Assembly: GCA_017469885.1 (NCBI GenBank)
Contig: JAFUFO010000015.1
Coordinates: 1-64,000 of the forward strand
From: Solobacterium sp.
GTDB taxonomy: Bacteria > Bacillota_I > Bacilli_A > Erysipelotrichales > Erysipelotrichaceae
Reading direction: 5' to 3'
Length of the DNA stretch: 64,000 nt
Shown: positions 2,762 to 64,000 of the stretch, piece after piece
How positions within the stretch are numbered: the first letter of the stretch is position 1
Layout: each line of letters begins with the position of its first letter
The notes under the pieces: model-generated
Database searches by the model: none
What the model was told of the DNA's origin: nothing
Seen by the model: only the letters and a program-made list of their open reading frames with translations
Position numbers and translations under genes: made by a program

Positions 2762-4141
2762 ATGTACGGTATCGTAAAGATCTGTATCACTGAGAATCGT
2801 TATCCTGCTTTGTATGAATACTGTGCAGATATGACTGCCCGCTATAAGAACCTTAAGAATGCCTCCCTTTTCATCCTGCGTCAGTGGTATACCGCATGCG
2901 GAAGATCCAACCTTCAGCCCAATCAGATTGAAGTGATCAATCTCGTGGAAGATACCTGCCGTTTCACCGGAAAGAAGAAGCCGGGAAGGATCATTCCATG
3001 GCCGTTCATTGAGAAAATGATGCGCTTAACAGAGAATCCGGATTACTATGCTCATCTTCCAAGGCATTGCGCCCAGCACGCCATCAAGGAAGCTGTAAAT
3101 GACTTCAGGAGCTGGAAGGCTGCTTTGGAGGCATATTTCCGTGATCCTTCCAGATTCACCGGAAAGCCAAAGATGCCGAAGTATATCAAACGGGATGTGA
3201 CTACTCTTACCTCAAGCAATCAGGAGTGCGTCATCAAGGAAATCGATGATTCTTATTATCTGAAGCTTCCCTTAACGAAGGAAATGGTCAAAGTGCATAT
3301 TCCAGATGACGCACGGCTCATGGAGGTAAAGATCAAGCCATTCTATGGGAATTATGTCATCGTCTTAACATATCAGTCCGATACTGTGATCAACAGTCCC
3401 TCTTCCTTTCAGCCTGTCTATGAAGGTGCCATCGATCCTGGCGTAAACAACCTCGCAGCTCTCGTAAGCAATGACGGTAGAGAACCGCTGCTGTACAAAG
3501 GCGAAGTGCTTAAGTCAAGGAACCAGTGGTACAACAAACAGAAGGCCATGCACATCTCGTGCCTTACAAAGGGACATGATCCAAAGACTGTAAGTATAGA
3601 TTCAAAACTGTTAAGACGGTTGTCCCGTTACCGGTCTGACTTCATCCGGGATTATCTGCACAAAGTCAGCAGTCATATCGTAAAAATATGCTTGAAGCGT
3701 AATATCGGTTTCCTGTATATCGGAAAGAACGATCAGTGGAAGACAAAGGCAAATATGTCAAAAGCATCCAATCAGGAATTCGTATCCATTCCGCACAGCA
3801 CACTGATCTGGATGATCCGGTATAAGGCAGAACGGTATGGTATCTCTGTCATTGAACAGGAAGAATCATATACTTCAAAGGCAAGCTTCCTGGATGATGA
3901 TGCATTACCGGTATACGGAGAGAAAGATGAAGAACAGAAGTTCAGCGGTAGACGCATCTCCAGAGGACTGTATCGCACAGCAAATGGCACCGTATTGAAT
4001 GCGGATGTCAACGGCAGTGCAAACATCTTACGAAAGGCATCACCGAATGCCTTTGAAGGGGTCACAGACTACCGATTCCTTCAAAAAGTGAAAACAGTAC
4101 CATTCCGGGCATTATACCCAGCTGGTACTGTTTCGGTATAA
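2762..4141 (+). CDS. tnpB: TnpB-like RNA-guided nuclease, IS200/IS605 family, no zinc ribbon
   Basis: About 459 residues from the ATG at 2762, chosen because GGGAGG lies 8 bp upstream; an in-frame TTG at 2729 has no such site. The RuvC-like catalytic core is visible: IDPGVNNLAALVS (first Asp), EQEESYTSKASF (Glu) and NADVNGSANILRK (final Asp). TnpB proteins are RuvC nucleases guided by an RNA from the element's 3' end, and they are ancestors of Cas12. The CxxC zinc-ribbon pairs usually found between the Glu and last Asp motifs are absent; the interval FLDDDALPVYGEKDEEQKFS carries no cysteine. No tnpA transposase is nearby, so this is a tnpB-only element. Its sequence differs in style from the surrounding core genes. 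Confidence 0.9.
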   Translation: MYGIVKICITENRYPALYEYCADMTARYKNLKNASLFILRQWYTACGRSNLQPNQIEVINLVEDTCRFTGKKKPGRIIPWPFIEKMMRLTENPDYYAHLPRHCAQHAIKEAVNDFRSWKAALEAYFRDPSRFTGKPKMPKYIKRDVTTLTSSNQECVIKEIDDSYYLKLPLTKEMVKVHIPDDARLMEVKIKPFYGNYVIVLTYQSDTVINSPSSFQPVYEGAIDPGVNNLAALVSNDGREPLLYKGEVLKSRNQWYNKQKAMHISCLTKGHDPKTVSIDSKLLRRLSRYRSDFIRDYLHKVSSHIVKICLKRNIGFLYIGKNDQWKTKANMSKASNQEFVSIPHSTLIWMIRYKAERYGISVIEQEESYTSKASFLDDDALPVYGEKDEEQKFSGRRISRGLYRTANGTVLNADVNGSANILRKASPNAFEGVTDYRFLQKVKTVPFRALYPAGTVSV

Positions 4142-12116: not shown

Positions 12117-13532
12117 ATGAGCGGATATTTTGCGGCAACGCTGACTGAAGACTGTGTATTCGATCTGTTCTACGGCACGGACTATCATTCCCACCTCGGC
12201 ACCCGGCGTGCAGGCATGGCAGTCTACGGCAAGGATGGATTCAACCGCGCGATTCACAACATTGAGAATTCCCCATTCCGTACCAAGTTCACATACGATG
12301 TGGCTGAGATGAAAGGCTACATGGGTGTCGGCATCATTTCCGACTATGATCCCCAGCCGCTTCTGGTACGCTCGCACCACGGTACCTATGCAATTGTCAC
12401 CATCGGAAAGATCAACAACTCCGATGAGCTGATTGAAAAACTCTTCAACAACGGCCGCGGTCACTTCATGGAAATGACCAACGGCGAACTGAACAAGACG
12501 GAGATCGTCGCCGCCCTGATCAACCAGCAGGACAACATCATCAGCGGCATCAAGTATGCCCAGCAGATGATCGACGGCTCGATGTCGATCATGATGCTTA
12601 CCGAAAAGGGAATCTACTGCGCAAGAGATGCGCTGGGCAGAACCCCGATTCATATCGGCGTCAAGCCGGAAGGATACTGCGCAAGCTTTGAGTCCTTTGC
12701 CTACGAAAAGCTTGGCTACAGCCAGTACAAGGAGCTTGGCCCGGGTGAGATTGTCATCATCACCCCGCATTCCTGCACAGTGCTCTCCGATCCGGGAAAA
12801 AAGAAGAAGATCTGTACGTTCCTGTGGACCTACTACGGATATCCGCCCAGCCGCTATGAAGGCACGACCGTTGAGAAGATGCGTTATGACTGCGGAAAAT
12901 TCATGGCGCAGCGGGATAATCTCACCAGTGATGATATCGATATCGTTGCCGGTGTTCCCGACAGCGGAATTGCCCATGCGATCGGTTATTCCAACGAAAG
13001 CCATGTGCCGTATTCCCGTCCGTTCATCAAATATACGCCGACCTGGCCGCGTTCCTTCATGCCCACCATGCAGACAAAACGTGACCTGATCGCCCGGATG
13101 AAGCTGATTCCGGTCGCCGAACTGATTGAGAATAAAAGGATGCTGCTGATCGACGACTCGATCGTCCGCGGCACTCAGCTGCGTGAAACAACCGAGTTCC
13201 TGTATGAAAGCGGCGCCCGGGAAGTGCATGTCCGTCCGGCATGCCCGCCGATTCTCTTCGGCTGTAAGTACATCAACTTCTCCCGGTCCACGGATGATAT
13301 GGAGCTGATTGCCCGCCGCATCATTGCCCGCGAAGAGGGACAGGATGTGGAACGGGTCATCCTTGATGACTACGCGAACCCGGACAGCGACCGCTATCAC
13401 CGGATGCTGGACCTCATGAGAGAAGAGATGAACTTCTCTTCCCTGAGCTTCAACCGTCTCGATGACATGATCAAGGCAACGGGTCTTACCGAAGATGAGG
13501 TGTGCACCTACTGCTGGAACGGTAAAGAATAA
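12117..13532 (+). CDS. PurF-like phosphoribosyltransferase with degenerate glutaminase domain
   Basis: A 471-residue homologue of amidophosphoribosyltransferase (PurF), which normally hydrolyses glutamine and transfers the ammonia to PRPP. The C-terminal phosphoribosyltransferase half is intact, with MLLIDDSIVRGTQ at ~342-354 and GVPDSGIAHAIGYS, and the terminal CTYCWNGKE resembles other PurF tails. The N-terminal glutaminase half keeps its fold (GTDYHSHLGTRRAGMAVYG) but lacks its catalytic residues: it begins MSGYFA where PurF has the Cys nucleophile (MCG.. after processing). The oxyanion-hole NGN is IGK, and the usual SDSE is NKTE. The start is firm (AAGGAG 7 bp upstream). It is monocistronic, away from other pur genes. 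It may be ammonia-dependent or have a regulatory role. Confidence 0.85.
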   Translation: MSGYFAATLTEDCVFDLFYGTDYHSHLGTRRAGMAVYGKDGFNRAIHNIENSPFRTKFTYDVAEMKGYMGVGIISDYDPQPLLVRSHHGTYAIVTIGKINNSDELIEKLFNNGRGHFMEMTNGELNKTEIVAALINQQDNIISGIKYAQQMIDGSMSIMMLTEKGIYCARDALGRTPIHIGVKPEGYCASFESFAYEKLGYSQYKELGPGEIVIITPHSCTVLSDPGKKKKICTFLWTYYGYPPSRYEGTTVEKMRYDCGKFMAQRDNLTSDDIDIVAGVPDSGIAHAIGYSNESHVPYSRPFIKYTPTWPRSFMPTMQTKRDLIARMKLIPVAELIENKRMLLIDDSIVRGTQLRETTEFLYESGAREVHVRPACPPILFGCKYINFSRSTDDMELIARRIIAREEGQDVERVILDDYANPDSDRYHRMLDLMREEMNFSSLSFNRLDDMIKATGLTEDEVCTYCWNGKE

Positions 13533-50926: not shown

Positions 50927-52087
50927 ATGGAACAGATGAAACAGAAAGTTATCCCGAATCAGTCAACAGAACAGCGTGCTGTTCGTCTTCCCGGTTTTTG
51001 CGATGTACATGTACATCTGCGAGAGCCGGGTTTTTCTTATAAAGAGACGATCAAAACCGGTTCACAGGCAGCTGCGCGGGGCGGCTACACGGCAGTCTGC
51101 ACGATGCCGAACCTGAACCCGGTGCCCGATTCGCTCGAGCATCTCAAGGTCCAGCAGGACATCATCGATGCGGATGCGGTCATTCACGTATATCCCTACG
51201 CCGCAATTACGGTAAAGGAAGAAGGAAAAGAGCTCGCGGATATGGAGGCGCTGGCTGATCATGTCATTGCCTTCTCCGATGACGGACATGGCGTGCAGTC
51301 AGACGAGATGATGGAAGAGGCCATGAAGCGGGCGAAGAAACTGAACAAGCTGATCGTCGCGCACTGCGAAGACAACCGCCTGTTAAAGGGCGGATACATC
51401 CATGACGGACGCTACGCAAAGGAACACGGTCACCGCGGCATCTGCTCGGAAAGCGAGTGGGGTCAGATCGCGCGTGATCTGGAGCTTGCGGAAAAGACCG
51501 GCTGCGGCTATCACGTATGCCATATCTCCACAAAGGAGAGTGTGGAAGTGATCCGCCAGGCAAAAGCCCGCGGCGTGGATGTGACCTGCGAGACCGCTCC
51601 GCACTATCTGTTATTGTGTGAGGACGACCTGCAGGAAGACGGTTGGTGGAAGATGAATCCGCCGCTGCGCTCGAAGGAAGACCATGATGCGCTGATCGAG
51701 GGTATCAAGGACGGAACGATCGATGTGATCGCGACCGACCATGCGCCCCACAGCGAAGAAGAAAAGAGCAGGGGTCTTGAAAAGAGCGCGTTTGGAATCG
51801 TCGGTATCGAAACGGCATTCCCGCTGCTCTACACCTACCTGGTAAAGCCGGGTGTGATCACCATGGAACGGCTGATGGAACTGCTGGTATATAAACCGAG
51901 AGAACGGTTCAACATTCCGCTTGGCGAAGAGGATTACTCCATCTGGGATCTTGAAGCGGAGACCGTGATCGATCCGAAGGACTTCCTGTCAAAGGGAAAG
52001 GCCACACCGTTTGCCGGATGGAAGGTAAACGGCATCTGCAGAAAAACAGTTATGAACGGCATCACCGTATACGAGGAGGGCAAGTAA
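50927..52087 (+). CDS. pyrC: Dihydroorotase
   Basis: A 386-residue class I dihydroorotase, forming dihydroorotate from carbamoyl aspartate. Zinc-site motifs are FCDVHVHLREPG, an AFSDDGHGVQ segment, LIVAHCEDN, CGYHVCHISTKESVE and VIATDHAPHSEEEK. The start at 50927 has AGGAGG 5-6 bp upstream. It is the first gene of the pyr operon and the nearest to the attenuator. The N-terminal extension MEQMKQKVIPNQSTEQRAVR is unusual compared with family members that begin at the second motif region. Confidence 0.94.
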   Translation: MEQMKQKVIPNQSTEQRAVRLPGFCDVHVHLREPGFSYKETIKTGSQAAARGGYTAVCTMPNLNPVPDSLEHLKVQQDIIDADAVIHVYPYAAITVKEEGKELADMEALADHVIAFSDDGHGVQSDEMMEEAMKRAKKLNKLIVAHCEDNRLLKGGYIHDGRYAKEHGHRGICSESEWGQIARDLELAEKTGCGYHVCHISTKESVEVIRQAKARGVDVTCETAPHYLLLCEDDLQEDGWWKMNPPLRSKEDHDALIEGIKDGTIDVIATDHAPHSEEEKSRGLEKSAFGIVGIETAFPLLYTYLVKPGVITMERLMELLVYKPRERFNIPLGEEDYSIWDLEAETVIDPKDFLSKGKATPFAGWKVNGICRKTVMNGITVYEEGK

Positions 52088-52088
52088 T

Positions 52089-55000
52089 ATGGCAAAACGT
52101 ACAGACCTTAAGAAGATTCTCATCATCGGCTCCGGACCGATCGTCATCGGTCAGGCAGCGGAATTCGACTATGCCGGCACCCAGGCGTGTCTTGCGCTGA
52201 AGGAGGAAGGCTATCAGGTCATTCTCTGCAACTCCAACCCGGCGACGATCATGACCGATACATCGATCGCGGACAAGGTATACATGGAGCCGCTGACACT
52301 GGAATATATCGCAAAGATCCTGCGCTATGAGCGCCCGGATGCGATCCTGCCGGGCATCGGCGGACAGACCGGTCTGAATCTCGCGATGCAGCTGGAGAAG
52401 AAGGGCATTCTGAAAGAGTGCGGTGTCGAACTGATCGGCACCAGCAGCCGCAGTATTGAACGTGCGGAAGACCGTGAGCTCTTCAAGGAAATGTGCCAGT
52501 CGATCGGCGAGCCGGTTATTCCTTCCGAGATCACCTACTCGATCGAAGAGGCAAAGAAGGCAGCGCTGGACATCGGTTACCCGGTCGTACTCCGTCCTGC
52601 ATTTACACTCGGCGGCACCGGCGGCGGCTTTGCGAACAATGAAGAGGAGCTCGTTGAAATCGGAAACAATGCCTTCAAGCTTTCCCCGGTTCATCAGGTT
52701 CTCGTTGAGAAGTCCGTCAAGGGATACAAGGAAATTGAATTTGAAGTCATGCGTGACTCCAATGACCATGCGATCACGATCTGCGGCATGGAGAACGTTG
52801 ATCCGGTCGGCGTGCATACCGGTGACAGTATCGTCGTTGCGCCGATCCTTTCGCTCAATGATCATGATCTGAAGATGCTGAATGACAGCGCAATCAAGAT
52901 CATCCGTGAGCTTCAGATCGCCGGCGGCTGTAACGTGCAGTTTGCGCTGAACCCGAATTCCAGCGAATACTATCTGATCGAAGTTAATCCGCGTGTATCG
53001 CGTTCCTCTGCGCTGGCTTCCAAGGCAAGCGGCTATCCGATCGCAAGGGTTACCGCTAAGATCGCAGTCGGCATGGCGCTTGAGGACATTCCGGTCGCAG
53101 GCGGAACCGCCGCGATCGAACCGTCGCTCGATTACCTTGTCGCAAAGTTCCCGCGCTTTCCGTTCGACAAGTTCCCGCTGGCACCGAATGTGCTCGGCAC
53201 CCAGATGAAGGCAACCGGCGAAGTCATGGGCATCGGCTCCACGCTGGAAGAATGCTTCCTGAAGTCGGTCCGTTCGCTTGAAACCGGTGTCTGCCACTTC
53301 CACATGGCAAAGTTTGACGAGATGCCGGATGAAGACATTCATGCATATCTGAAGGAATTCCGCGCCGACGGCATCTTTGCGGTGGCGGAATTGCTTCGCA
53401 GAGGTGAAAGCATCGAGTCGCTCTATAAGCTGACAATGATCACACCGCTCTTCCTTGAGACGCTGAAGAAGATCATCGACTTCGAGCAGACCCTGAAGGA
53501 AAACGTAAAGGATGTGAAGATCCTCCGTGAGGCAAAGATCATGGGCTTCTCCGACCGGGCAATTGCCCACCTCTGGGGATGCAGTGAGATCGATGTATAT
53601 CACATGCGCAAAGCGGAAAAGATCACCCCGGTATTCCGCATGGTCGATACGCTTCATACCGGAACGTACATTGCATATCTCTATTCCTCCTATACCGGAG
53701 AAAACGAGTCCCGTCTTTCTGACCGGAAGAAGGTAATCGTCATCGGCGCCGGTCCGATCCGTATCGGACAGGGTGTTGAGTTTGACTACTCCTCCGTCCA
53801 TGCAGTACAGACGATCCGCCGTGCCGGCTATGAGGCAATCATTATCAATAACAACCCGGAGACAGTTTCCACTGACTATACAACAGCGGACAAGCTCTAC
53901 TTTGAACCGCTGACCACGGAAGATGTCATGGAGATCATCGACTTCGAACAGCCGATCGGCGTCATCGCCTCCCTCGGCGGACAGACGGCGATCAACCTCG
54001 CAGAACCGCTCCGTGCCCGCGGCGTCAAGCTGATCGGAACTGACTGCGATGCGATCGAGCGTGCGGAAAACCGCGACAGCTTTGAAAAGGTCCTGCAGCG
54101 CCTGAACATCCCGCAGCCGCAGGGCAAGGCGGTCACCAACATCGAAGACGGTGTCGCGGCCGCAAAGGAAATCGGCTATCCGGTTCTCGTGCGTCCTTCC
54201 TTCGTCCTCGGCGGACGTGCCATGCAGATTGTCGCGGATGAAGAACATCTGCGCAGATATCTGCGTGACGCCGTTGAAATCGATGCGGACAAGCCGGTCC
54301 TCGTTGACCATTACATCCAGGGTAAGGAGCTCGAAGTTGACGCGATCTGCGACGGCATCGACGTTTTCGTGCCGGGCATTATGGAACTGGTAGAACGTAC
54401 CGGTATTCACTCCGGTGACTCGATCTCCGTCTATCCGACCTTCAGCGTTTCGGACAAGGTGAAGGGCATCATCCTGCAGTATGCAAAGAAGCTCGGTCTT
54501 GAGATCGGCATCGTCGGTCTCTACAACATCCAGTTCATCGTTGATGAAAATGAGGATGTCTATATCATCGAAGTCAATCCGCGTTCTTCCCGTACGGTAC
54601 CGTTCCTATCCAAGGCAACCGGTTACTCCCTTGCGGATATCGCAACGGAAGTGATCCTGGGCAAGAGCCTGAAGGAACAGGGCATCTTCTGCCTGTATCC
54701 GGAAGAGAAGAAGCGCCACTACGTCAAGGTTCCGGTCTTCTCCTTCAACAAGATCAAAGGTCTTGACGCATATCTCTCGCCGGAGATGAAGTCCACCGGT
54801 GAAGCGATCGGCTATGACGACAAGCTCAACCGCGCGCTGTTCAAAGCCCTGCAGGCAAGCGGCACCCGCCTGCAGAATTACGGAACCGTATTCGTGACCG
54901 TCGCCAAGAAGGACAAGGAAGAGGCGCTCCCGCTGGTCCGCCGTTTCTACAACCTTGGCTTCAACATTCAGGCAACTCCGGGAACCGCAGAGTTCCTGAA

Positions 55001-55262
55001 GGAAAACGGCATCCGCACGCATGTCCTGCAGAAGATCAAGGAAGGCAGCGACGATATCCCCAACGCGATCCGTCAGGGACATCTTGCCTATGTGATCAAT
55101 ACCCAGGATCCGGGATCCATGTCCACCGCAAGTGACGGTGCAAAGATCCGTACGCTGGCAACGGAAAACAATGTGACGATCTTCACCTCGCTGGATACCG
55201 TATCCGTACTGCTGGATGTTCTTGAGGAGACCACACTGACGATCTCGACGATCGATGCGTGA
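52089..55262 (+). CDS. carB: Carbamoyl phosphate synthase large subunit
   Basis: A 1057-residue CarB, making carbamoyl phosphate from bicarbonate, ammonia and two ATP. Two homologous ATP-grasp halves are evident: IGSGPIVIGQAAEFDYAGTQ at the start and IGAGPIRIGQGVEFDYSSVH near residue 556, plus VLRPAFTLGGTGGGFANNEE and VLVRPSFVLGGRAMQIV. The C-terminal allosteric MGS-like domain ends SDGAKIRTLATENNVTI. Length is standard. It follows pyrC with one base between them. The small glutaminase subunit carA is not next to it or anywhere in the window, so it must be encoded elsewhere. Confidence 0.96.
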   Translation: MAKRTDLKKILIIGSGPIVIGQAAEFDYAGTQACLALKEEGYQVILCNSNPATIMTDTSIADKVYMEPLTLEYIAKILRYERPDAILPGIGGQTGLNLAMQLEKKGILKECGVELIGTSSRSIERAEDRELFKEMCQSIGEPVIPSEITYSIEEAKKAALDIGYPVVLRPAFTLGGTGGGFANNEEELVEIGNNAFKLSPVHQVLVEKSVKGYKEIEFEVMRDSNDHAITICGMENVDPVGVHTGDSIVVAPILSLNDHDLKMLNDSAIKIIRELQIAGGCNVQFALNPNSSEYYLIEVNPRVSRSSALASKASGYPIARVTAKIAVGMALEDIPVAGGTAAIEPSLDYLVAKFPRFPFDKFPLAPNVLGTQMKATGEVMGIGSTLEECFLKSVRSLETGVCHFHMAKFDEMPDEDIHAYLKEFRADGIFAVAELLRRGESIESLYKLTMITPLFLETLKKIIDFEQTLKENVKDVKILREAKIMGFSDRAIAHLWGCSEIDVYHMRKAEKITPVFRMVDTLHTGTYIAYLYSSYTGENESRLSDRKKVIVIGAGPIRIGQGVEFDYSSVHAVQTIRRAGYEAIIINNNPETVSTDYTTADKLYFEPLTTEDVMEIIDFEQPIGVIASLGGQTAINLAEPLRARGVKLIGTDCDAIERAENRDSFEKVLQRLNIPQPQGKAVTNIEDGVAAAKEIGYPVLVRPSFVLGGRAMQIVADEEHLRRYLRDAVEIDADKPVLVDHYIQGKELEVDAICDGIDVFVPGIMELVERTGIHSGDSISVYPTFSVSDKVKGIILQYAKKLGLEIGIVGLYNIQFIVDENEDVYIIEVNPRSSRTVPFLSKATGYSLADIATEVILGKSLKEQGIFCLYPEEKKRHYVKVPVFSFNKIKGLDAYLSPEMKSTGEAIGYDDKLNRALFKALQASGTRLQNYGTVFVTVAKKDKEEALPLVRRFYNLGFNIQATPGTAEFLKENGIRTHVLQKIKEGSDDIPNAIRQGHLAYVINTQDPGSMSTASDGAKIRTLATENNVTIFTSLDTVSVLLDVLEETTLTISTIDA

Positions 55263-55267
55263 TAACC

Positions 55268-56002
55268 ATGAAACAGAGTTTACTGACTGTTATTTCCAAC
55301 AGCGCTCTTACATCCAATGTGTATGAGCTCAAACTGTCCGGCATTGAAGGGATGAACATCCGTCCCGGACAGTTCGTTAACGTGAAAACCGACGGAAACT
55401 ATCTGCGCCGTCCGATTTCGGTATGCGATGCGGAAGGAGATATTCTGACGCTGGTGTATCGTGTTGCCGGGGCAGGTACAGCAGAGATGAGCACCTGGCA
55501 GGTCGGAAAGAAAGCCGATGTTCTGACGGAACTTGGAAACGGCTATGATCTTTCCGCTGCCGGAGACCATCCGGTTCTGATCGGAGGCGGTGTCGGCATT
55601 CCGCCGCTGTACTATCTGGCAAAGGAACTGAAGAAACAGGGGAAAACGGTTTCCGCAGTCCTTGGCTTCAATACCGCATCCGAACGGTTCTACGAGGAAG
55701 CGTTTCGCGAAGTATGCGATGATGTATGTGTAACGACGGCCGACGGCTCGTACGGCATCAAAGGATTTGTGACGGATGCGCTGCCGCAGAATCCGACATG
55801 TTCGTACGCCTGCGGACCGACGCCGATGATGAAGGCGCTGTACCGCAGCCTTGCATGTGACGGACAGTTCAGTCTGGAGGAGCGCATGGGATGCGGCTTC
55901 GGCGCATGCATGGGCTGTTCGATTCAGACAAAGTCCGGCAATAAGCGTGTCTGCAAGGACGGTCCGGTATTCCGGAAGGAGGATCTCTTATGGGAAGACT
56001 GA
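55268..56002 (+). CDS. pyrK: Dihydroorotate dehydrogenase electron transfer subunit
   Basis: About 244 residues from the ATG at 55268; a GTG at 55259 overlapping carB is possible, and neither has a clear ribosome binding site. PyrK passes electrons from dihydroorotate (via PyrD) to NAD+. It shows the FAD-binding motif YLRRPISVCDAEGDIL, the NAD-binding GGGVGIPPLYYLAKEL, the ACGPTPMMKALYR block and the [2Fe-2S] ligands in CGFGACMGCSIQ with a final KRVCKDGPVF. Overlap with pyrD (13 bp) matches their obligate heterotetramer. Confidence 0.93.
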   Translation: MKQSLLTVISNSALTSNVYELKLSGIEGMNIRPGQFVNVKTDGNYLRRPISVCDAEGDILTLVYRVAGAGTAEMSTWQVGKKADVLTELGNGYDLSAAGDHPVLIGGGVGIPPLYYLAKELKKQGKTVSAVLGFNTASERFYEEAFREVCDDVCVTTADGSYGIKGFVTDALPQNPTCSYACGPTPMMKALYRSLACDGQFSLEERMGCGFGACMGCSIQTKSGNKRVCKDGPVFRKEDLLWED

Positions 56003-56898
56003 GTGTTGAACTGTGCGGGATCGAACTGGACAACCCGGTTATTCCGGCTTCCGGAACGTTTGGCTTTGGCTATGAGTTTGCGGAGCTGTATGACATCAAC
56101 TGTCTTGGAACGTTCTCGTTCAAGGGAACGACAAAAGATCCCCGCTTCGGCAATCCGACCCCGCGCATCGCAGAGTGCTCTATGGGCATGTTAAATGCGG
56201 TAGGTCTGCAGAACCCGGGCGTTGAGGCAGTCATTAACGAAGAACTTCCGAAACTGAAGCCGGTATTCCATAAACCGGTGATGGCAAATATCAGCGGCTT
56301 CTCCGTGGACGATTATGTCTATACCGCAAAGAAGCTGGACGCGGAAGATCAGGTCGGCTGGCTGGAGATCAACATCAGCTGTCCGAATGTGCACGGCGGA
56401 GGAATGAGCTTCGGCACAGATCCCGATGCGGCATATGAAGTGATCCATGCGGTGCGTCAGGTGACGAAAAAACCGCTGATCGCAAAGCTTTCGCCGAATG
56501 TTACAGACATCACAGCCATCGCAAAGGCATGCGAGAATGCAGGCGCAGATGCGGTGAGCCTAATCAATACGCTGCTTGGCATGCGCATTGATCTGAAGAC
56601 AAAAAAACCGGTTCTGGCAAATACAACCGGCGGACTGTCCGGACCGGCGGTATTCCCGGTTGCGGTCCGTATGGTATATCAGGTTCATAAGGCAGTCTCC
56701 ATTCCGGTCATCGGAATGGGCGGTGTCTCGAGCGCACAGGACGTGATCGAGATGATGATGGCCGGCGCTACCGCAGTGGAGATCGGCGCCGCCAATCTTG
56801 TTGATCCGTTTGCCTGCCCGAAGATCATTGAAGAGCTGCCGGCGGTAATGGACAGATGCGGCATTGAAAATCTCACCGATATCATCGGTATTGCATAA
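55990..56898 (+). CDS. pyrD: Dihydroorotate dehydrogenase, NAD-type catalytic subunit (class 1B)
   Basis: A 302-residue PyrDB. It has the NPVIPASGTFGFGYEF opening, VGLQNPGVEAVI, the NISCPNVHGGGMSFG motif with the class 1 catalytic Cys, AKLSPNVTDITAIA and the FMN-phosphate site GMGGVSSAQDVIEMMMAGAT. The paired PyrK confirms class 1B rather than fumarate-dependent 1A or membrane class 2. AAGGAGG inside pyrK provides the ribosome binding site. Confidence 0.96.
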   Translation: MGRLSVELCGIELDNPVIPASGTFGFGYEFAELYDINCLGTFSFKGTTKDPRFGNPTPRIAECSMGMLNAVGLQNPGVEAVINEELPKLKPVFHKPVMANISGFSVDDYVYTAKKLDAEDQVGWLEINISCPNVHGGGMSFGTDPDAAYEVIHAVRQVTKKPLIAKLSPNVTDITAIAKACENAGADAVSLINTLLGMRIDLKTKKPVLANTTGGLSGPAVFPVAVRMVYQVHKAVSIPVIGMGGVSSAQDVIEMMMAGATAVEIGAANLVDPFACPKIIEELPAVMDRCGIENLTDIIGIA

Positions 56899-56913
56899 CA
56901 GGAGGATAACGTT

Positions 56914-57615
56914 ATGGCAAAAGATGTAATCATTGCCTGCGATTTTGCGGGCGAAGCAGAGACACTGAAGTTTCTTGATCAGTTTACAGAGGAGCGTCCG
57001 TTTGTAAAGATCGGCATGGAGCTGTTCTATTCGGCAGGACCTTCCATCGTAAAGAAGATCAAGGAGCGCGGACATCCGATCTTCCTTGATCTCAAACTCC
57101 ATGACATTCCCAATACCGTAAAGAAGACCATGGCAGTGCTTTCGTCCCTGGATGTGGATATCTGCAATCTCCACGCCTCCGGCACAACGCCGATGATGAA
57201 GGCTGCGCTGGAAGGTCTCACAAGACCGGACGGCACACGTCCGCTGCTCATTGCGGTAACCCAGCTTACCTCAACCGACCAGGAAGCGCTGGAAAACGAT
57301 CTGCTCATTCACGAGCCGATCGATAAAGTGGTCATGCATTATGCCCTGACCGCAAAGAATGCGGGACTTGACGGCGTGGTATGTTCGCCGCTGGAAGCCG
57401 CAAAGGTTCATGAAGTATGCGGTGAATCATTCCTGACGGTAACACCGGGCGTGCGTTTCGCCGACAGTAAGGCGGATGATCAGAAACGTGTCATGACACC
57501 GGAGAAGGCAAGGGAAGCCGGCTCCGACTACATTGTGGTCGGACGTCCGATCACCCAGGCGCCTGACCCCGTTGCGGCATACCGCAGATGTGTAAAGGAA
57601 TTTCTCGGAAAGTAA
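56914..57615 (+). CDS. pyrF: Orotidine 5'-phosphate decarboxylase
   Basis: A 233-residue PyrF converting OMP to UMP. The catalytic Asp-Lys-Asp cluster is in IFLDLKLHDIPNT. IIACDFAGEAETLKFLDQF at the start and VTPGVRFADSKADDQKRVMT, then GSDYIVVGRPITQA, complete the phosphate site. AGGAGG is 8-9 bp before the ATG. It is a standard group I enzyme. The order pyrD-pyrF-pyrE follows the reaction order of the final steps. Confidence 0.96.
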   Translation: MAKDVIIACDFAGEAETLKFLDQFTEERPFVKIGMELFYSAGPSIVKKIKERGHPIFLDLKLHDIPNTVKKTMAVLSSLDVDICNLHASGTTPMMKAALEGLTRPDGTRPLLIAVTQLTSTDQEALENDLLIHEPIDKVVMHYALTAKNAGLDGVVCSPLEAAKVHEVCGESFLTVTPGVRFADSKADDQKRVMTPEKAREAGSDYIVVGRPITQAPDPVAAYRRCVKEFLGK

Positions 57616-57632
57616 TAAGGAGGACTAACCAT

Positions 57633-58271
57633 ATGGAACTGAATCAGAAAATTGCGGAAGATCTTCTGAAAATCAAGGCAGTATTCTTCCGTCCGGATGA
57701 ACCGTTCATCTGGGCAAGCGGAATCAAGAGTCCGGTCTACTGCGACAACCGTCTGACTCTGACGGCACCGGAAGTAAGAACGGATGTGGAAACCGGTCTT
57801 GCGGAGCTGATCCGCACCTACTATCCGGAAGCGGAAGTTCTGATGGGAACCTCCACGGCAGGTATCGCCCACGCCGCAATCACGGCGCATCTGATGGGAC
57901 TGCCGATGGGTTATGTCCGTGGCGGAAACAAGGACCACGGCCGGAAGAACCAGATCGAGGGAAAACTCGAGGCAGGACAGAAAGTCGTTGTTGTGGAGGA
58001 TCTGATCTCCACCGGCGGAAGCGTCATTGAAGTCGTCAATGTGCTCCGTGAGGCAGGCGCGGAAGTGCTCGGTGTCGTATCGATTTTCACCTACGGCATG
58101 GAAAAGGGTAAGCAGCGTCTGGCAGACGCAAATGTCATCAACCACTCCCTGACCGACTTTGACTGCATCGCGGAAGTTGCGGCGAAGACCGGTTATATCA
58201 GCGAGGCGGATATAAAGCGTCTGATCGCGTTCCGCAACAACCCGTCCGATGAGTCGTGGATCGCATTATGA
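57633..58271 (+). CDS. pyrE: Orotate phosphoribosyltransferase
   Basis: About 212 residues from 57633, chosen because AAGGAGG precedes it; an in-frame ATG at 57588 is inside pyrF. It joins orotate and PRPP to make OMP. The PRPP motif [18 protein letters not shown] is clear, as are [16 protein letters not shown] and the flexible loop [14 protein letters not shown]. The stop overlaps the pyrB start. Confidence 0.95.
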
Positions 58272-59191
58272 GAAGCGTCATCGATGTGCTCGATCTCAGC
58301 GTTGAGGAGATCGATGAACTGATTGAAACGGCAGAGGACATCATTGCCGATCCGGACAAATACGCGCATGTATGTGACCGGAAGAAACTGGCAACCCTGT
58401 TCTTTGAGCCGTCCACCCGGACAAGAATGAGTTTTGAGGCGGCGATGTATGAACTCGGCGGACATGTCATTTCCATGTCCGAGGCAAATTCCTCCAGCGC
58501 CGCAAAGGGAGAGTCTGTCGCGGATACGGTAAAGACGGTATCCAACTATGTGGATATCATTGCGATGCGCCATCCCAAGGAGGGCGCTGCGCTTGTCGCC
58601 GCAAACAATGCGTCGATTCCGGTCATCAATGCCGGAGACGGCGGACACTGCCATCCGACGCAGACCCTGGCTGATCTGCTTACGATCCACCGGGAGAAGA
58701 AGCACTTCGACAACCTGACGATCGGCTTCTGCGGCGACCTGAAGTTCGGCCGTACCGTGCATTCGCTCTGCGGGGCGATGGCACGCTATCCGGGATCGAA
58801 GTTTGTGCTGATTTCACCGGAAGAGCTGAAGCTTCCAAGCTATGTGAAGCGGAATGTGCTGGACCCGGCAGGCATCCAGTACACCCAGACCACGGATCTT
58901 GAAGATTCCATGGAGAATCTCGACATCCTGTATATGACCCGTGTGCAGCGGGAGCGCTTCTTCAATGAGGAAGACTACCTGCGTCTCAAGGACCGTTACA
59001 TCCTGACGGCAGAGAAGATGAAGAAGGCACCGGAAAGCATGATCGTCATGCATCCGCTGCCGAGAGTCAACGAAATCTCTGTTGCGGTGGATGATGATCC
59101 GCGGGCATGTTACTTCAAGCAGGTGCTCAACGGCAAATACATGCGCATGGCACTGATCATGAAGCTTCTGAAGGAGGCAGGCAGACTATGA
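58268..59191 (+). CDS. pyrB: Aspartate carbamoyltransferase catalytic subunit
   Basis: About 307 residues from the ATG at 58268, which overlaps the pyrE stop (ATGA). The carbamoyl-phosphate site [15 protein letters not shown] and [12 protein letters not shown] with NAGDGG are canonical, as is [12 protein letters not shown] near the C-terminus. Its stop overlaps pyrI, so a PyrBI dodecamer with allosteric control is expected. Confidence 0.95.
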
Positions 59192-59595
59192 ATATCGACA
59201 GTATCCGAAACGGCATTGTCATCGACCACATCTCTGCCGGCAAGGGCATGAAACTGGTCAGCCTGCTGGAGCTGGACCGCGATGATGTGTCGGTCGCGAT
59301 CATCAAGAACGTGCACAGCCAGAAGATGGGCAAGAAGGACATCATCAAGATCGATGCGGATATTCCGGTCAATCTGGATGTCATCGGCTATGTGGATCCT
59401 GATGCGACGGTCAATGTGATCAAGGACGGCGTGCTGGTGGAAAAGAAGACCATCGAGCGGCCGAAGATCCTGACCGGCGTCATCCGCTGCAAAAATCCCC
59501 GCTGCATCACCACAACCGAGCAGGAGCTGAAACATGTCTTCTGCCTGCGGGATGACGGCTACCGCTGCATGTACTGCGAAACCAAAGCAGAATAA
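59188..59595 (+). CDS. pyrI: Aspartate carbamoyltransferase regulatory subunit
   Basis: About 135 residues from 59188 (AAGGAGGC upstream), a short PyrI. It has [37 protein letters not shown] and the zinc site CKNPRC with CMYC (four Cys). Bacillus-type bacteria lack PyrI, so its presence gives nucleotide feedback (CTP/ATP) to the first committed step. It is the last gene of the pyr operon and is followed by a terminator. Confidence 0.95.
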
Positions 59596-59664: not shown

Positions 59665-59715
59665 AACGGAATTATCGAATTCCGTTACAAAAGGGGGAAG
59701 GTTCATTGTTATAAT
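59665..59715 (+). promoter_or_regulatory. Palindromic operator and promoter of the CooC-dehydratase operon
   Basis: A 22-bp perfect palindrome at 59665-59686 (AACGGAATT, ATCG, AATTCCGTT) ends one base before the expected -35 window. TATAAT (59710-59715) is the -10, 42 bp before the first ATG; no good -35 is present, which suggests an activated promoter. The palindrome is a likely regulator site. Confidence 0.6.
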
Positions 59716-59756
59716 GTTTTCAGCTATAGATTCAACAGAAAGGTAACCTATACATA

Positions 59757-60518
59757 ATGGAGAACAAAGTGATAGCACTGTGCGGAAAAGGAGGGGTCGG
59801 AAAGACCTCTGTTTCGGCAGTGATCGTAAGGACACTCTGCCAGTCCTGCCCGGGCAAACGGATCCTTGCGATAGACGGCGATCCTTCGGTCGGACTTGCG
59901 ACGGCGCTCGGCGTGTCGGAGAAGGGAACGATCAATGATATCCGTGAGGATTTCATCCGGCTTGCGGATCAGCGGAAGGACGCCGAGGCAATTGAGATGT
60001 TGCATGAAGCGAGAGATCGTATTTTCGACTCTCTGGTGGAAACTGATGCCTTCTCGTTTCTTGCGATCGGACGGCCGGAGTCAGCCGGCTGTTATTGCTC
60101 GGTGAATGATTATCTGCGCGACCTGATCACGATCGTCGCAGATCATTTTGACTATGTCGTGATCGACGGCGAAGCGGGCATTGAACAGATCAACCGGAGA
60201 GTCATGGAGAAAGTGAATCATCTGGTATTTGTTTCGGATGCCTCCAGGAAAGGTCTGGATGTGATCCGGACCATCGACACCGTCGCTAAGGAACTTGTCG
60301 TCTATGACAAGGCGGGCGTGATCCTGAACCGCCTTCACGATCCGAAGGTCGCAGAGAATCTGGACCTTGGCGGTCTGGAACTGCTTGCGGCGATCGGCGA
60401 AGACCCGCTTGTTCAAAGCTACGATATTGAAGGAAAATCACTGCTTACACTGCCGGATGACACCCCGCTCTGTCAGGGCGTCCGGGCTGCGTTACAGAAA
60501 ATGGAGATTATCGCATGA
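59757..60518 (+). CDS. CooC-type metal-insertion P-loop ATPase
   Basis: A 253-residue MinD/ParA-fold ATPase of the CooC group. It has the deviant Walker A GKGGVGKTSVS (10-20), IDGDPSVGLATALGV, and the CooC hallmark CYC at residues 112-114 (SAGCYCSVND), where two Cys bind metal across the dimer. It also has the CooC-type DGEAGIEQINRR at 137-148. CooC loads nickel into carbon monoxide dehydrogenase. No cooS/acs gene is nearby; it is the first gene of an operon with two 2-hydroxyacyl-CoA-dehydratase-like subunits and their activase. Its stop overlaps the next gene by 4 bp. The metal and the target protein here are unknown. Confidence 0.85.
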   Translation: MENKVIALCGKGGVGKTSVSAVIVRTLCQSCPGKRILAIDGDPSVGLATALGVSEKGTINDIREDFIRLADQRKDAEAIEMLHEARDRIFDSLVETDAFSFLAIGRPESAGCYCSVNDYLRDLITIVADHFDYVVIDGEAGIEQINRRVMEKVNHLVFVSDASRKGLDVIRTIDTVAKELVVYDKAGVILNRLHDPKVAENLDLGGLELLAAIGEDPLVQSYDIEGKSLLTLPDDTPLCQGVRAALQKMEIIA

Positions 60519-61702
60519 GAGACCTGAAACATCTTTATGAGCTGGAGAAGCTGCTGCTGAATGTTTCGAATGATTACATCAGCGCTGCCCAGCAGGAAGG
60601 AAAACTGTGTATCGGCACCGTATGCGACAATGTGCCGGAACCGCTTCTGAATCTTCCCGGATGTTTTTCCATCCGGCTTCGCGCACCGCGCACCGGCTCG
60701 ATGGAAATCGGCACCTACTACATGACGAATTTCCTGTGCGAGTATACCCGGGCGCTTCTCGAGCGTGCCATTGAAGGCGGCTTCAATTTCCTGGATGCGC
60801 TGATTGCGCCGGACGGATGTTCGATGCTGAACCGCTGTGTTGAAAACATGGAACTTCTGAAGACCATGAAGAAGGATCACTTCTTCAATGAATTCATGGA
60901 AATTCCGATGAAGGCGGATGACAACGGACTGTTCCTGTACAAGCTTCAGTGCACGAATCACATTCTGAAACCGCTGAAGGAACACTTTGCCATCGATATT
61001 TCCGATGATGCGATGCGTCAGGCGGTAAAGGAACATAACCGTGTCTGTGATCTCATTCAGGAGATCGGACAGTTCCGCAAGGCGGACAATCCGGTCATTA
61101 CCGGATATGAATTCCACATCCTGACACTTGCGACCTACGTCATGCCGAAGCGGGACATCATCCCGATTCTCGAGGAGACGCTCGAAGAGCTGAAGACCCG
61201 TGAGCCGGATGAGAAGTCCCCGTGGAAAGTACGCGTTGAATTTGTCGGCTCCGAAGTGGATGACTCCGACATCATCAAGGCGATCGAGGAATGCGGCGCC
61301 TATGTATGCGCGGACCGCTTCTGTTACGGATCCTTCCCGGGCCGCACCAGAATCGAGATGTCCGATGACGAAGATCCGCTGACCGCGATCTGCCGCAAAT
61401 ACATGTATGACTGCCAGTGCGCAAGAATGATGAACAAGGACAAGATCCTCGGGCGCCGGCAGTATGTGGCGGACCTTGCGAAGGAATACAAGGCGGATGG
61501 AATCATTTACGAACAGATGAAATTCTGTGATCCGTGGGCATATGAACGCATGGTCGGAACCGTTGTCCTGCGTCAGGACTACGGCTATCCGGTGCTCTCT
61601 GTTGACCGCCCGTACGCAAACGGCGGCAGCGGACAGATGCGGACACGAGTACAGGCGTTTGTCGAATCGATTGAAATCAAGAAACTGGCGAAAGACAGGT
61701 AA
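60515..61702 (+). CDS. 2-hydroxyacyl-CoA dehydratase-like subunit (HgdB/double-cubane family)
   Basis: A 395-residue member of the 2-hydroxyglutaryl-CoA dehydratase D-component family. Typical iron-sulfur cysteines are visible: APDGCSMLNRC (102, 108), the ADRFCYGS segment (C270) and the family motif MKFCDPWAYE (C338). Such subunits bind [4Fe-4S] or double-cubane [8Fe-9S] clusters and use one electron supplied by an ATP-driven activase to do difficult reductions or dehydrations. The adjacent CooC-like ATPase is not a usual partner. It overlaps that gene (ATGA) and lies 5 bp before the second subunit. Confidence 0.85.
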   Translation: MRDLKHLYELEKLLLNVSNDYISAAQQEGKLCIGTVCDNVPEPLLNLPGCFSIRLRAPRTGSMEIGTYYMTNFLCEYTRALLERAIEGGFNFLDALIAPDGCSMLNRCVENMELLKTMKKDHFFNEFMEIPMKADDNGLFLYKLQCTNHILKPLKEHFAIDISDDAMRQAVKEHNRVCDLIQEIGQFRKADNPVITGYEFHILTLATYVMPKRDIIPILEETLEELKTREPDEKSPWKVRVEFVGSEVDDSDIIKAIEECGAYVCADRFCYGSFPGRTRIEMSDDEDPLTAICRKYMYDCQCARMMNKDKILGRRQYVADLAKEYKADGIIYEQMKFCDPWAYERMVGTVVLRQDYGYPVLSVDRPYANGGSGQMRTRVQAFVESIEIKKLAKDR

Positions 61703-61707
61703 GGAAT

Positions 61708-63270
61708 ATGGCAAAGGAAATCGGAAAAGATAAATTCGGGTCATTCTATACCGGCGGAAAAGTCAGAAGCCGCAGAGAATGGCGCGGTGTGAAAGATACA
61801 CTGTATGACTATTCCAGATGGCTGTACATCATGGCGCAGCTTGGAAAGTTCATGGTGAAGCCGCGGAATGTGAAGGGCTTCTTCCGTTACCGCTGGATGT
61901 CAAACTATCTGGCAGTGCCGATGATGGTGGACCGCTTCTCACAGGGATTACGGGGACCGCAGCTGCGGATCCTGCATGAGGAATTCGACATCATCGTCTA
62001 TGACGTCGCAAAACTTCTGGACGGACTGTTCCGGGGTGACCGTCACCTTGGAAATGACAAGGCGTACTCCGACAAGGTTGTACTCCTTGATGAAAATGAA
62101 ATGACGACCTTCATGATGGGCTTCCCGACACTGAAGGGACTCTCGCGTGAAACTCCGGCTGCCTATGTTTCGGTGCTGCTCAACCAGCATGCGGCGGAGC
62201 GTTATATCGATGTCGCACAGGAATTCGGACTTGCGGGTGACGTCTGCCCGATGCCGGAAACCGAAGCGGGCATCTCGATCGCGGATGATTTCCCGGTACT
62301 TGGCGCCTGCGCGGTCCAGTGCAATACGACCTGCGACGGCTCCCTGCTTGGAAACGGCGTCATCTCCAAACGTCTGGAACTGGAAGAAGGCATTCCGTGC
62401 TTCCAGCTCGGCACGCCGCTGCGTCACCGCGAGGATGACGTGCAGGAATATGCCGCAAACGAAATGAAGGCATGCATCAAATTCATTGAAGAACATACCG
62501 GCGAGAAGTGGGACTGGAAATACTACTTTGAATGCATGCACAGAGTAAACATCGCAACCCGCTCCCGTCAGGAATGGCTGGATATGAACAAGACCGATTA
62601 CCCGCAGGTAGTCGGCGGAAACCTGGCGCTGTATACGGAAACCAACTATATGGCAATCAGCGGAAAGGTGGATCTGTTCCGGAAAGCGGATGAAAAGATC
62701 ACAAAGATCGCCCGCAAGGCCTGGGAAGACAAGGTCATGGTTGCGAAGGAATACCGTCACCGTGCCATCATCTGGGGCGTGCAGTCGCACTTCTACATGG
62801 ACTTCCTGGTATGGATTCTGAACTGCTGGGGCATCGTGCCGCTGACGGATATGCTGTCGATGATCAATACCCGCATCTTTGCGGAGACAGATACCCCGGA
62901 AAACCGTGAACAGGCATACTACGACATGGCATGGCTGAATGAAAACATGATCATGCGCAACCGCACCCACGGCGGCTATAAAGTCCTGCTCGATGAGCTG
63001 TGGGAGTTCTGCGAAGAATTCAATGCCGATATGGTCATTCTCTGGGAACACATGGCCTGCAAGGCGCTGGACGGCATGCACGGACAGTTTGAGGAAAAGG
63101 CCCGTGAAAAGGGTATTCACCTGATCTGGGTCAACCACGACCTGTTTGACCCGCGCATTACATCCCGTCAGGGTGTACGTGACCAGGTCAACCAGTACAT
63201 GCGTACGGTTCTGCGGGAAGAACCGCTGGATCCGTCGCTTGAGATTCTCGATGACGACAAATCCTGGTAA
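61708..63270 (+). CDS. 2-hydroxyacyl-CoA dehydratase family partner subunit, long form
   Basis: A 520-residue protein, longer than HgdA/HgdB (~400-480). The body shows VSVLLNQHAAERYIDVAQEF, GDVCPMPETEAGISIADDF, and a Cys cluster GACAVQCNTTCDGSLLGNG, then a C-terminal half with FNADMVILWEHMACKALDG. The N-terminal ~100 residues (DKFGSFYTGGKVRSRREWRG) are an extra segment. It pairs with the HgdB-like gene and probably forms the second half of a heterodimer with its own or a shared iron-sulfur cluster. Membership rests on gene context and motif style; substrate unknown. Confidence 0.75.
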   Translation: MAKEIGKDKFGSFYTGGKVRSRREWRGVKDTLYDYSRWLYIMAQLGKFMVKPRNVKGFFRYRWMSNYLAVPMMVDRFSQGLRGPQLRILHEEFDIIVYDVAKLLDGLFRGDRHLGNDKAYSDKVVLLDENEMTTFMMGFPTLKGLSRETPAAYVSVLLNQHAAERYIDVAQEFGLAGDVCPMPETEAGISIADDFPVLGACAVQCNTTCDGSLLGNGVISKRLELEEGIPCFQLGTPLRHREDDVQEYAANEMKACIKFIEEHTGEKWDWKYYFECMHRVNIATRSRQEWLDMNKTDYPQVVGGNLALYTETNYMAISGKVDLFRKADEKITKIARKAWEDKVMVAKEYRHRAIIWGVQSHFYMDFLVWILNCWGIVPLTDMLSMINTRIFAETDTPENREQAYYDMAWLNENMIMRNRTHGGYKVLLDELWEFCEEFNADMVILWEHMACKALDGMHGQFEEKAREKGIHLIWVNHDLFDPRITSRQGVRDQVNQYMRTVLREEPLDPSLEILDDDKSW

Positions 63271-63293
63271 ACAGAAGAGGAGAAACGAAAACT

Positions 63294-64000
63294 ATGAAAT
63301 TTTATGGCGGATGTGATTCCGGATCGACGTATACCAAGTGCGTCATCATGGACGAAACCGGAAAGATACGGTCCGATGTGACACTGCGTTCCAAGATCCG
63401 GACAGTGGAAAGCTGTCAGGACGCAATCAATCAGGCGGTAGAGAAAGTGCCGGAGCTGAACAGTCCGGCAGATCTCTCTTACCTTGTCGGTACAGGCTAC
63501 GGCCGAAACAAGGTTCCTTCAGCGGATGAGAATATCTCGGAGATTTCCTGTCATGCGATGGGCGTTCACGTTGTGGACCCGACCGTCCATGCGATCATCG
63601 ATATCGGCGGACAGGACGTCAAGGGAATTGCGGTCGATACCGACGGAACGGTATTGAACTTTGCGATGAATGACAAGTGCTCTGCCGGAACCGGACGCTT
63701 CTTTGAGGCAATGTCCAGAGCGTTTGAAATGAGCCTCGAGGATTTCTCGAAGCTGTCCCTCAGCGCGAAGAATACGATTCCCATCACCTCGCAGTGCACC
63801 GTATTTGCGGAATCCGAAGTTATCTCCCTGGTCGGTGAAGGAAAGCCGACCGATGAGATCGCCGCAGGTATTGAACTCTCTGTCGCAAAGCGCTGCTTTG
63901 TCATGGCAAAGAAGGCCGGCGCAACCGACCGCATCACCCTGACCGGCGGATGCGCAAAGAATGACGGTCTGAAGAAGGCAATCGAACAGGTGCTCAACCT
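63294..64000 (+). CDS. Acyl-CoA dehydratase activase (HgdC-like), cut by window end
   Basis: The first 235 residues of an ASKHA-fold ATPase; the gene continues past 64000. It has the phosphate-1 motif GGCDSGSTYTKCVIMD, IIDIGGQDVKGI, and the two cluster-ligand cysteines in NDKCSAGTGRFFE (C129) and SQCTVFAESEV (C168). These bridge a [4Fe-4S] cluster between two subunits in HgdC. Hydrolysis of two ATP lowers the potential of the electron passed to the dehydratase. AGAGGAG lies 9-12 bp before the ATG, 23 bp after the previous gene. Confidence 0.9.
   Translation, partial: MKFYGGCDSGSTYTKCVIMDETGKIRSDVTLRSKIRTVESCQDAINQAVEKVPELNSPADLSYLVGTGYGRNKVPSADENISEISCHAMGVHVVDPTVHAIIDIGGQDVKGIAVDTDGTVLNFAMNDKCSAGTGRFFEAMSRAFEMSLEDFSKLSLSAKNTIPITSQCTVFAESEVISLVGEGKPTDEIAAGIELSVAKRCFVMAKKAGATDRITLTGGCAKNDGLKKAIEQVLN

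Follow-up and report, generated by a model that had tools for sequence, protein, structure and literature searches.

To our knowledge, enzymes that use nickel are few, and the double-cubane reductases comprise only a handful of proteins. Among the latter, DCCP is a homodimer whose only reported activity is the reduction of small molecules, and we know of no CooC, acetyl-CoA synthase (ACS)-like or microprotein partner for it. The Bzd-type class I benzoyl-CoA reductase (BCR) is a heterodimer, BzdNO, served by the BzdPQ activase; it holds an [8Fe–9S] cluster through BzdN Cys36/73/100/263/293/327 and a [4Fe–4S] cluster through BzdO Cys95/128/380 (PMC11971306). Nickel-inserting ATPases of the CooC/AcsF type belong to carbon monoxide dehydrogenase (CODH)/ACS systems, and the Zn/Ni ligands of CooC-1 from C. 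hydrogenoformans are residues 112 and 114 (PMC6006190). Here we describe an operon at the end of the first 64,000 bases of contig C16 (hereafter the window) of a 2.66-Mb Solobacterium genome in 49 contigs; positions beyond the window continue the numbering of the same contig. As read from its genes, this operon encodes an HGD-D heterodimer with cluster-ligand cysteines, an activase, a CooC, an ACS-derived protein and a microprotein, in a fixed order and with consistent co-occurrence. We favor, with a probability of about 0.55, the reading that it specifies a double-cubane reductase driven by ATP and belonging to the class I BCR/DCCP type, along with a module dedicated to nickel maturation and membrane docking.

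A preliminary description of the window had reported four translationally coupled genes, for a CooC-type ATPase, an HgdB-like subunit, a long HgdA-like subunit and an activase. All four are present where it placed them, and the coupling is borne out by an ATGA overlap between cooC and hgdB and by gaps of 5 nt between hgdB and hgdA and 23 nt between hgdA and the activase gene. However, two further coupled open reading frames (ORFs) of 55 and 236 aa follow, so that the four-gene form becomes a six-gene operon, cooC–hgdB–hgdA–activase–microprotein–ACS-like (Table 1).

The HgdB-like and HgdA-like Subunits

The two subunits score 297 and 121 bits against the Pfam HGD-D model (cut-off 28.4), and together with the CoA_E activase they show the domains that an (R)-2-hydroxyacyl-CoA dehydratase would have. 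Such a dehydratase (HgdA/HgdB) had served as the model in the preliminary description. However, the closest PDB match of the HgdB-like subunit is BzdN (E 2.5e-32), and its C37/75/102/270/302/338 align with BzdN C36/73/100/263/293/327, these six ligand cysteines being conserved in 67 or 68 of 68 sequences. In the same alignment, DCCP has all six cysteines, whereas HadC has no counterpart of BzdN C36 or C263, suggesting that HgdBA is a reductase rather than a dehydratase. The dehydratase model is thus replaced, while the double-cubane cluster that the same description had also considered fits the six ligands.

In the HgdA-like subunit, C180, C209, C373 and C451 are invariant in 74/74 sequences. 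A weak alignment with BzdO places C180 at C95 and C209 within one residue of C128, and C451 aligns there with the SC cysteine of MbdO; C373 is a further invariant cysteine beyond the three [4Fe–4S] ligand positions. The structure model of this subunit is no closer to one of BzdO, DCCP and HadB than to the others (Z about 25 for each). The curated cut-offs are all missed, those for HadB/HadC (87.4 vs. 700 and 24.1 vs. 750 bits), for BcrC/BzdN (85.4 vs. 421 and 82.2 vs. 454 bits) and for the double-cubane proteins (NCBIfam NF040772; 148.8 and 35.4 vs. 350 bits), suggesting that HgdBA forms a separate branch. Judged from its sequences, HgdBA is probably a BCR/DCCP-type reductase.

The operon resembles the Bzd system in having a heterodimer of two HGD-D subunits with an ASKHA-type ATPase activase, with six [8Fe–9S] ligands in one subunit and, by the weak alignment, three [4Fe–4S] ligand positions in the other. 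It differs in the HgdA-like subunit, which is only 13–16% identical in structural alignment and has an extra N-terminal helical part, in having one activase gene rather than two, in the addition of CooC, the microprotein and the ACS-like protein, and in that no CoA-ligase neighbor was seen. The DCCP/DCCP-R system shares the six double-cubane cysteines and the single activase, whereas its homodimer is replaced here by an HgdB/HgdA pair, the double_cubane scores of which stay below 350.

CooC, the ACS-like Protein and the Microprotein

The first gene product has the CooC fold, its closest PDB match being CooC itself (3kje, E 1e-12). The CxC pair (C112/C114) and the DGEAGIE block named in the preliminary description as part of a full CooC signature were recovered, along with the deviant Walker A motif GKGGVGKT. 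The CxC pair is invariant in 21/21 aligned copies, and its residue numbers are the same as those of the CooC-1 metal ligands. A whole-genome search returned no PF03063 match for CODH/CooS and no full-length ACS, and a local CODH/ACS partner for CooC was rejected because the genome has no cooS and no full-length acs. The preliminary description had stated that no CO dehydrogenase is present, and this extends to the whole genome, but about 250 bases beyond the end of the window an ACS-derived gene begins; the cooS/acs operon that it had envisaged just outside the window is not there. Compared with the CooC/AcsF ATPases of CODH/ACS, the protein shares the fold, the deviant Walker A motif, the CxC at 112/114 and an ACS-derived neighbor, whereas its gene lies inside a reductase operon in a genome without CODH or full ACS. 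In two genomes, cooC and the ACS-like gene are immediate neighbors and no reductase gene accompanies them, and at locus L095 cooC, the activase gene and the ACS-like gene form one block.

Single-sequence searches with the ACS-like protein gave weak CdhC matches. A profile built from 15 sequences matches residues 309–506 of ACS (1oao_C) with an E value of 1.7e-6, and the alignment stops at Cys506, the first A-cluster cysteine. An AlphaFold2 model (mean pLDDT 83) was compared with the PDB by Foldseek, in which all 23 significant matches were ACS/CdhC (best E 6e-11), and it superimposes on ACS with Z 17.7 and 2.4 Å over 172 residues. The tail follows the pattern DCxxCx5CDxVEGxRELH, the three cysteines of which (C-x2-C-x5-C) are invariant. 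Its CxxC begins at the position of ACS Cys506-x2-Cys509, and the protein ends about 20 residues later. A complete A3 domain with the A-cluster ligands C506/509/518/528/595/597 is not present, only the three conserved cysteines. By profile and structure model, the product of the last gene of the operon is an ACS A2 domain followed by a new tail. It is thus like AcsB/CdhC, i.e., ACS or the ACDS beta subunit, in its A2 fold and in the CxxC at the A-cluster start, whereas it is only about 240 aa long, is without the A1 domain and the greater part of A3, CGC nickel ligands included, and carries a C-x2-C-x5-C tail that is new.

The 55-aa ORF, MKDLWKVCLFLIKFLTGFFVITFIVYFFNLDMKLTAALEPTIQKLQERVPRDRHL, overlaps both the activase gene and the 236-aa gene. 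Its product contains a single hydrophobic segment, with a hydropathy averaging 2.5 over 19 residues, and is predicted to be a one-helix membrane protein. A microprotein with the motif VYFxNLDxKL occurs in nearly all activase-to-ACS-like gaps examined, and its codon variation falls mainly on third positions (0.58 vs. 0.17–0.25 at second positions), indicating that the ORF is a real gene.

Gene Order and Co-occurrence

When genome contigs were scanned with the long HgdA-like protein, at least 538 relatives came up, and 80 loci were taken from these; most of the loci belong to ruminant and other gut Lachnospiraceae, Oscillospiraceae, Butyrivibrio, Mogibacterium and Solobacterium. Cultured strains with the system include Butyrivibrio sp. 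MC2021, VCB2006, XPD2006 and Su6. The order cooC–hgdB–hgdA–activase–microprotein–ACS-like recurs in about 20 distinct related loci and is kept wherever the set stays together (in two GC-rich loci, the genes were found by tblastn). Loci with hgdBA only also exist; of 43 genomes with such a locus, 40 have the small ACS-like gene elsewhere, one of them as a truncated match where a contig ends. Among 299 genomes from the family of the genome holding locus L045, the HgdA-like profile and the small ACS-like profile (E < 1e-30) pick the identical 24 genomes, with a Fisher P of 6e-36 that is overstated because related genomes are not independent. Five other genomes gave weak ACS-like matches in frames of about 720 aa, as true acetyl-CoA synthases would. 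Chance co-location of cooC was rejected by this synteny and co-occurrence, and the conservation of the four reported genes in relatives is upheld, with the accessory genes tracking the long HgdA-like gene exactly across the 299 genomes.

Each genome has one to four HgdA-like genes and a single ACS-like gene; the same-genus genome G116, for example, has three hgdBA pairs, one of them directly downstream of the ACS-like gene. One ACS-like copy beside several HgdBA pairs suggests that cooC, the activase, the microprotein and the ACS-like protein are helpers shared by several pairs. A close HgdA-like relative was found in only 2 of 148 sampled genomes of the order to which the genome of the window belongs, and the operon was therefore probably acquired horizontally in this lineage.

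HypA/HypB and Flavoprotein Neighbors

On another contig of the genome of the window, hypB, a gene for a 937-aa IsrA-like flavoprotein and hypA stand in this order (G000:C47, L104:6618-10369). The flavoprotein has the domain order Fer4/DPD-II/Pyr_redox, its CxC spacing (2, 74, 76) equals that of IsrA 180/182/254/256, and its six-cysteine site (C223/225, C244, C297/299, C304) is invariant in 27/27 sequences. These domains, the six-cysteine site and the HypA and HypB neighbors are shared with the putative isoprene reductase IsrA (Kronen et al. 2023, PMC10134865). However, HgdBA, the activase, CooC and the ACS-like protein are all absent from the isr operon, and the published IsrA neighbor analysis lists HypA, HypB, TetR and DUF5692 but not HGD-D (PMC10134865). 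The hypB–IsrA-like–hypA cluster is a candidate nickel-dependent alkene or other reductase. A [NiFe]-hydrogenase was not found in the genome of the window and was rejected as the target of HypA/HypB there (urease was outside the search). A second hypB-like tblastn match lies just upstream of hypB (L104:5847-6497, 61% identity), with an ORF on the other strand opposite.

The gene immediately after the operon in about ten relatives is the IsrA-like one, usually accompanied by hypA. IsrA-like genes occur in 19/24 genomes with the system vs. 43/275 others. In a second type of operon, the last gene is instead that for an old yellow enzyme (OYE)-like flavoenzyme: in Butyrivibrio and other loci, an iron–sulfur flavoenzyme of about 690 aa resembling OYE and 2-enoate reductase replaces IsrA after the ACS-like gene. 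In G116, cooC is directly preceded on its own strand by genes for a phytoene-desaturase-like FAD protein and a 2Fe–2S ferredoxin reductase (L019:16236-18976).

Proposed Mechanism and Alternative Readings

That nickel takes part in the function of the operon appears probable from its sequences, given a CooC whose metal site is intact, a partner derived from ACS with conserved cysteines starting at the A-cluster position, and HypA/HypB. HypA/HypB are the weaker evidence, since they travel with IsrA elsewhere without this operon. The metal-loading step suggested in the preliminary description fits in that the CxC is kept, an ACS-derived protein is encoded alongside, and HypA/HypB occur in the genome and near the operon in relatives; the metal itself, nickel, is inferred from sequence.

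In the favored reading, the activase would use ATP to drive low-potential electrons into the [8Fe–9S] cluster of the HgdB-like subunit, from which they would reach a cluster held by three cysteines of the HgdA-like subunit, the putative site of substrate reduction. CooC would carry nickel on its dimeric CxC site, the most likely recipient being the C-x2-C-x5-C site of the ACS-like protein; this protein could either keep the nickel as a working Ni–Fe–S center or pass it to the reductase; we put no single destination for the nickel at even odds. The microprotein would tether the complex to the membrane, and one copy of the accessory module would serve the one to four HgdB/HgdA pairs of a genome. 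The likely redox partner would be an NAD(P)H flavoprotein, either IsrA-like with HypA/HypB or an OYE-type iron–sulfur flavoenzyme, and the likely role that of an electron sink, in the gut or rumen, for a compound that is unsaturated or hard to reduce. More tentatively, and with somewhat less than an even chance, the whole may be a nickel-dependent redox system in which a double-cubane reductase needs CooC-loaded nickel in or through a minimal ACS-derived protein, is assembled at the membrane by the microprotein, and forms a platform shared by several substrate-specific reductases.

Several observations weigh against this picture. Tight nickel binding is not universal among CooC proteins, some of which bind little (PMC6006190), and HypA/HypB, which accompany IsrA elsewhere without this operon, may serve only IsrA (PMC10134865). 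The IsrA-like gene is found in only 19 of the 24 system genomes, and the co-occurrence statistic is inflated by relatedness as noted above. The ACS-like tail is modeled at low confidence (pLDDT about 50), its cysteine spacing is x2, x5 vs. x2, x8 in the A-cluster, and the distal nickel ligands of ACS (C595/C597) are missing. In addition, no conserved CoA-ligase or CoA-transferase neighbor that would point to a class of substrate was seen in the clusters inspected.

Alternatively, the small ACS-like protein could itself be the catalytic subunit, with a minimal A-cluster-derived Ni–Fe–S center loaded by CooC and with the activase and HgdBA as its electron supplier. AcsF loads ACS with nickel, and this arrangement agrees with the two loci where cooC directly adjoins the ACS-like gene and reductase genes are not next to them, with the invariant cysteines at the A-cluster start and with the single copy per genome beside several HgdBA pairs. 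However, the occurrence of several HgdBA paralogues per ACS-like copy suggests that the substrate is chosen by HgdBA, and a catalytic center would have to be built without the rest of the A3 domain or the distal nickel ligands, in a tail that is not confidently folded; we consider this arrangement unlikely. About equally doubtful is a system without nickel, in which CooC would be an assembly ATPase for iron–sulfur or double-cubane clusters and the ACS-like protein a redox or docking protein past nickel binding. The low nickel binding of some CooC proteins and the loss of the distal ligands from the ACS-like protein would be expected in such a case, and the P-loop family also holds non-nickel ATPases; yet the CxC metal ligands are invariant in 21/21 copies, the partner protein is derived from ACS, and HypA/HypB stand beside the IsrA-like gene after the operon in many relatives, while the genome of the window has no hydrogenase.

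A standard (R)-2-hydroxyacyl-CoA dehydratase with CooC as a hitch-hiker would account for the Pfam HGD-D and CoA_E_activ domains and for the fact that HadB is structurally as close as BzdO. It is nevertheless highly improbable: the HgdB-like subunit has all six double-cubane ligands, unlike HadC, the conserved order and the 24/24 co-occurrence exclude hitch-hiking, and the clusters inspected showed no conserved CoA-transferase or CoA-ligase neighbor.

Novelty and Significance

Searches of the open-access PMC literature on CooC or HypA with 2-hydroxyacyl-CoA dehydratases or nickel turned up no account of this gene set, and the operon may mark an uncharacterized nickel-using reduction in gut microbes. 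If nickel and the double cubane do meet here, this would be a new type of metalloenzyme, common in gut and rumen relatives among Lachnospiraceae, Oscillospiraceae, Mogibacterium, Butyrivibrio and Solobacterium, which could drive an uncharacterized reduction of compounds from the diet or the host. In that case, a piece of acetyl-CoA synthase would also have been reused outside the Wood–Ljungdahl pathway. The small ACS-like gene could serve as a cheap genomic marker for finding such reductases.

Coordinates and Surroundings of the Operon

Table 1. Positions of the operon genes on contig C16 and of OYE-like flavoenzyme genes at related loci
Feature	Position	Strand	Remarks
cooC-type P-loop ATPase, 253 aa	59757..60518	+	C112-x-C114, GKGGVGKT, DGEAGIE; best PDB match 3kje, E 1e-12
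HGD-D subunit 1 (HgdB-like), 395 aa, BzdN/DCCP-like	60515..61702	+	C37, C75, C102, C270, C302, C338 = six BzdN double-cubane ligands
HGD-D subunit 2 (long HgdA-like), 520 aa	61708..63270	+	BzdO/HadB/DCCP-like core; extra N-terminal helical part of ~80 residues
HgdC/BcrAD-type ATPase activase, 264 aa in full	63294..64000, ending at contig position 64088	+	Cut by window end
Membrane microprotein (predicted), 55 aa	64085-64252 (L003:12086-12253)		Beyond window end; overlaps activase gene
ACS-like protein, ~236 aa	Ends at 64959 (L003:12250 or 12253-12960)		Beyond window end; overlaps microprotein gene
OYE-like flavoenzyme, L019 copy	L019:2707-4758		Further along the same region
OYE-like flavoenzyme, other copies	L138:6191-8245, L139:2955-5018, L140:9385-11448, L141:10110-12179, L142:7597-9678		56-59% identical to L019 copy

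Scans for promoters and terminators around the operon gave nothing above shuffled sequences. A pyrimidine biosynthesis operon (pyrC, carB, pyrK, pyrD, pyrF, pyrE, pyrB and pyrI, named by eye) occupies window positions 50927-59595 and ends 161 bases upstream of cooC, and the interval contains a hairpin-like stretch with Ts after it. Elsewhere in the window, a 459-aa ORF at positions 2762-4141 resembles, by eye, an IS200/IS605-type TnpB.

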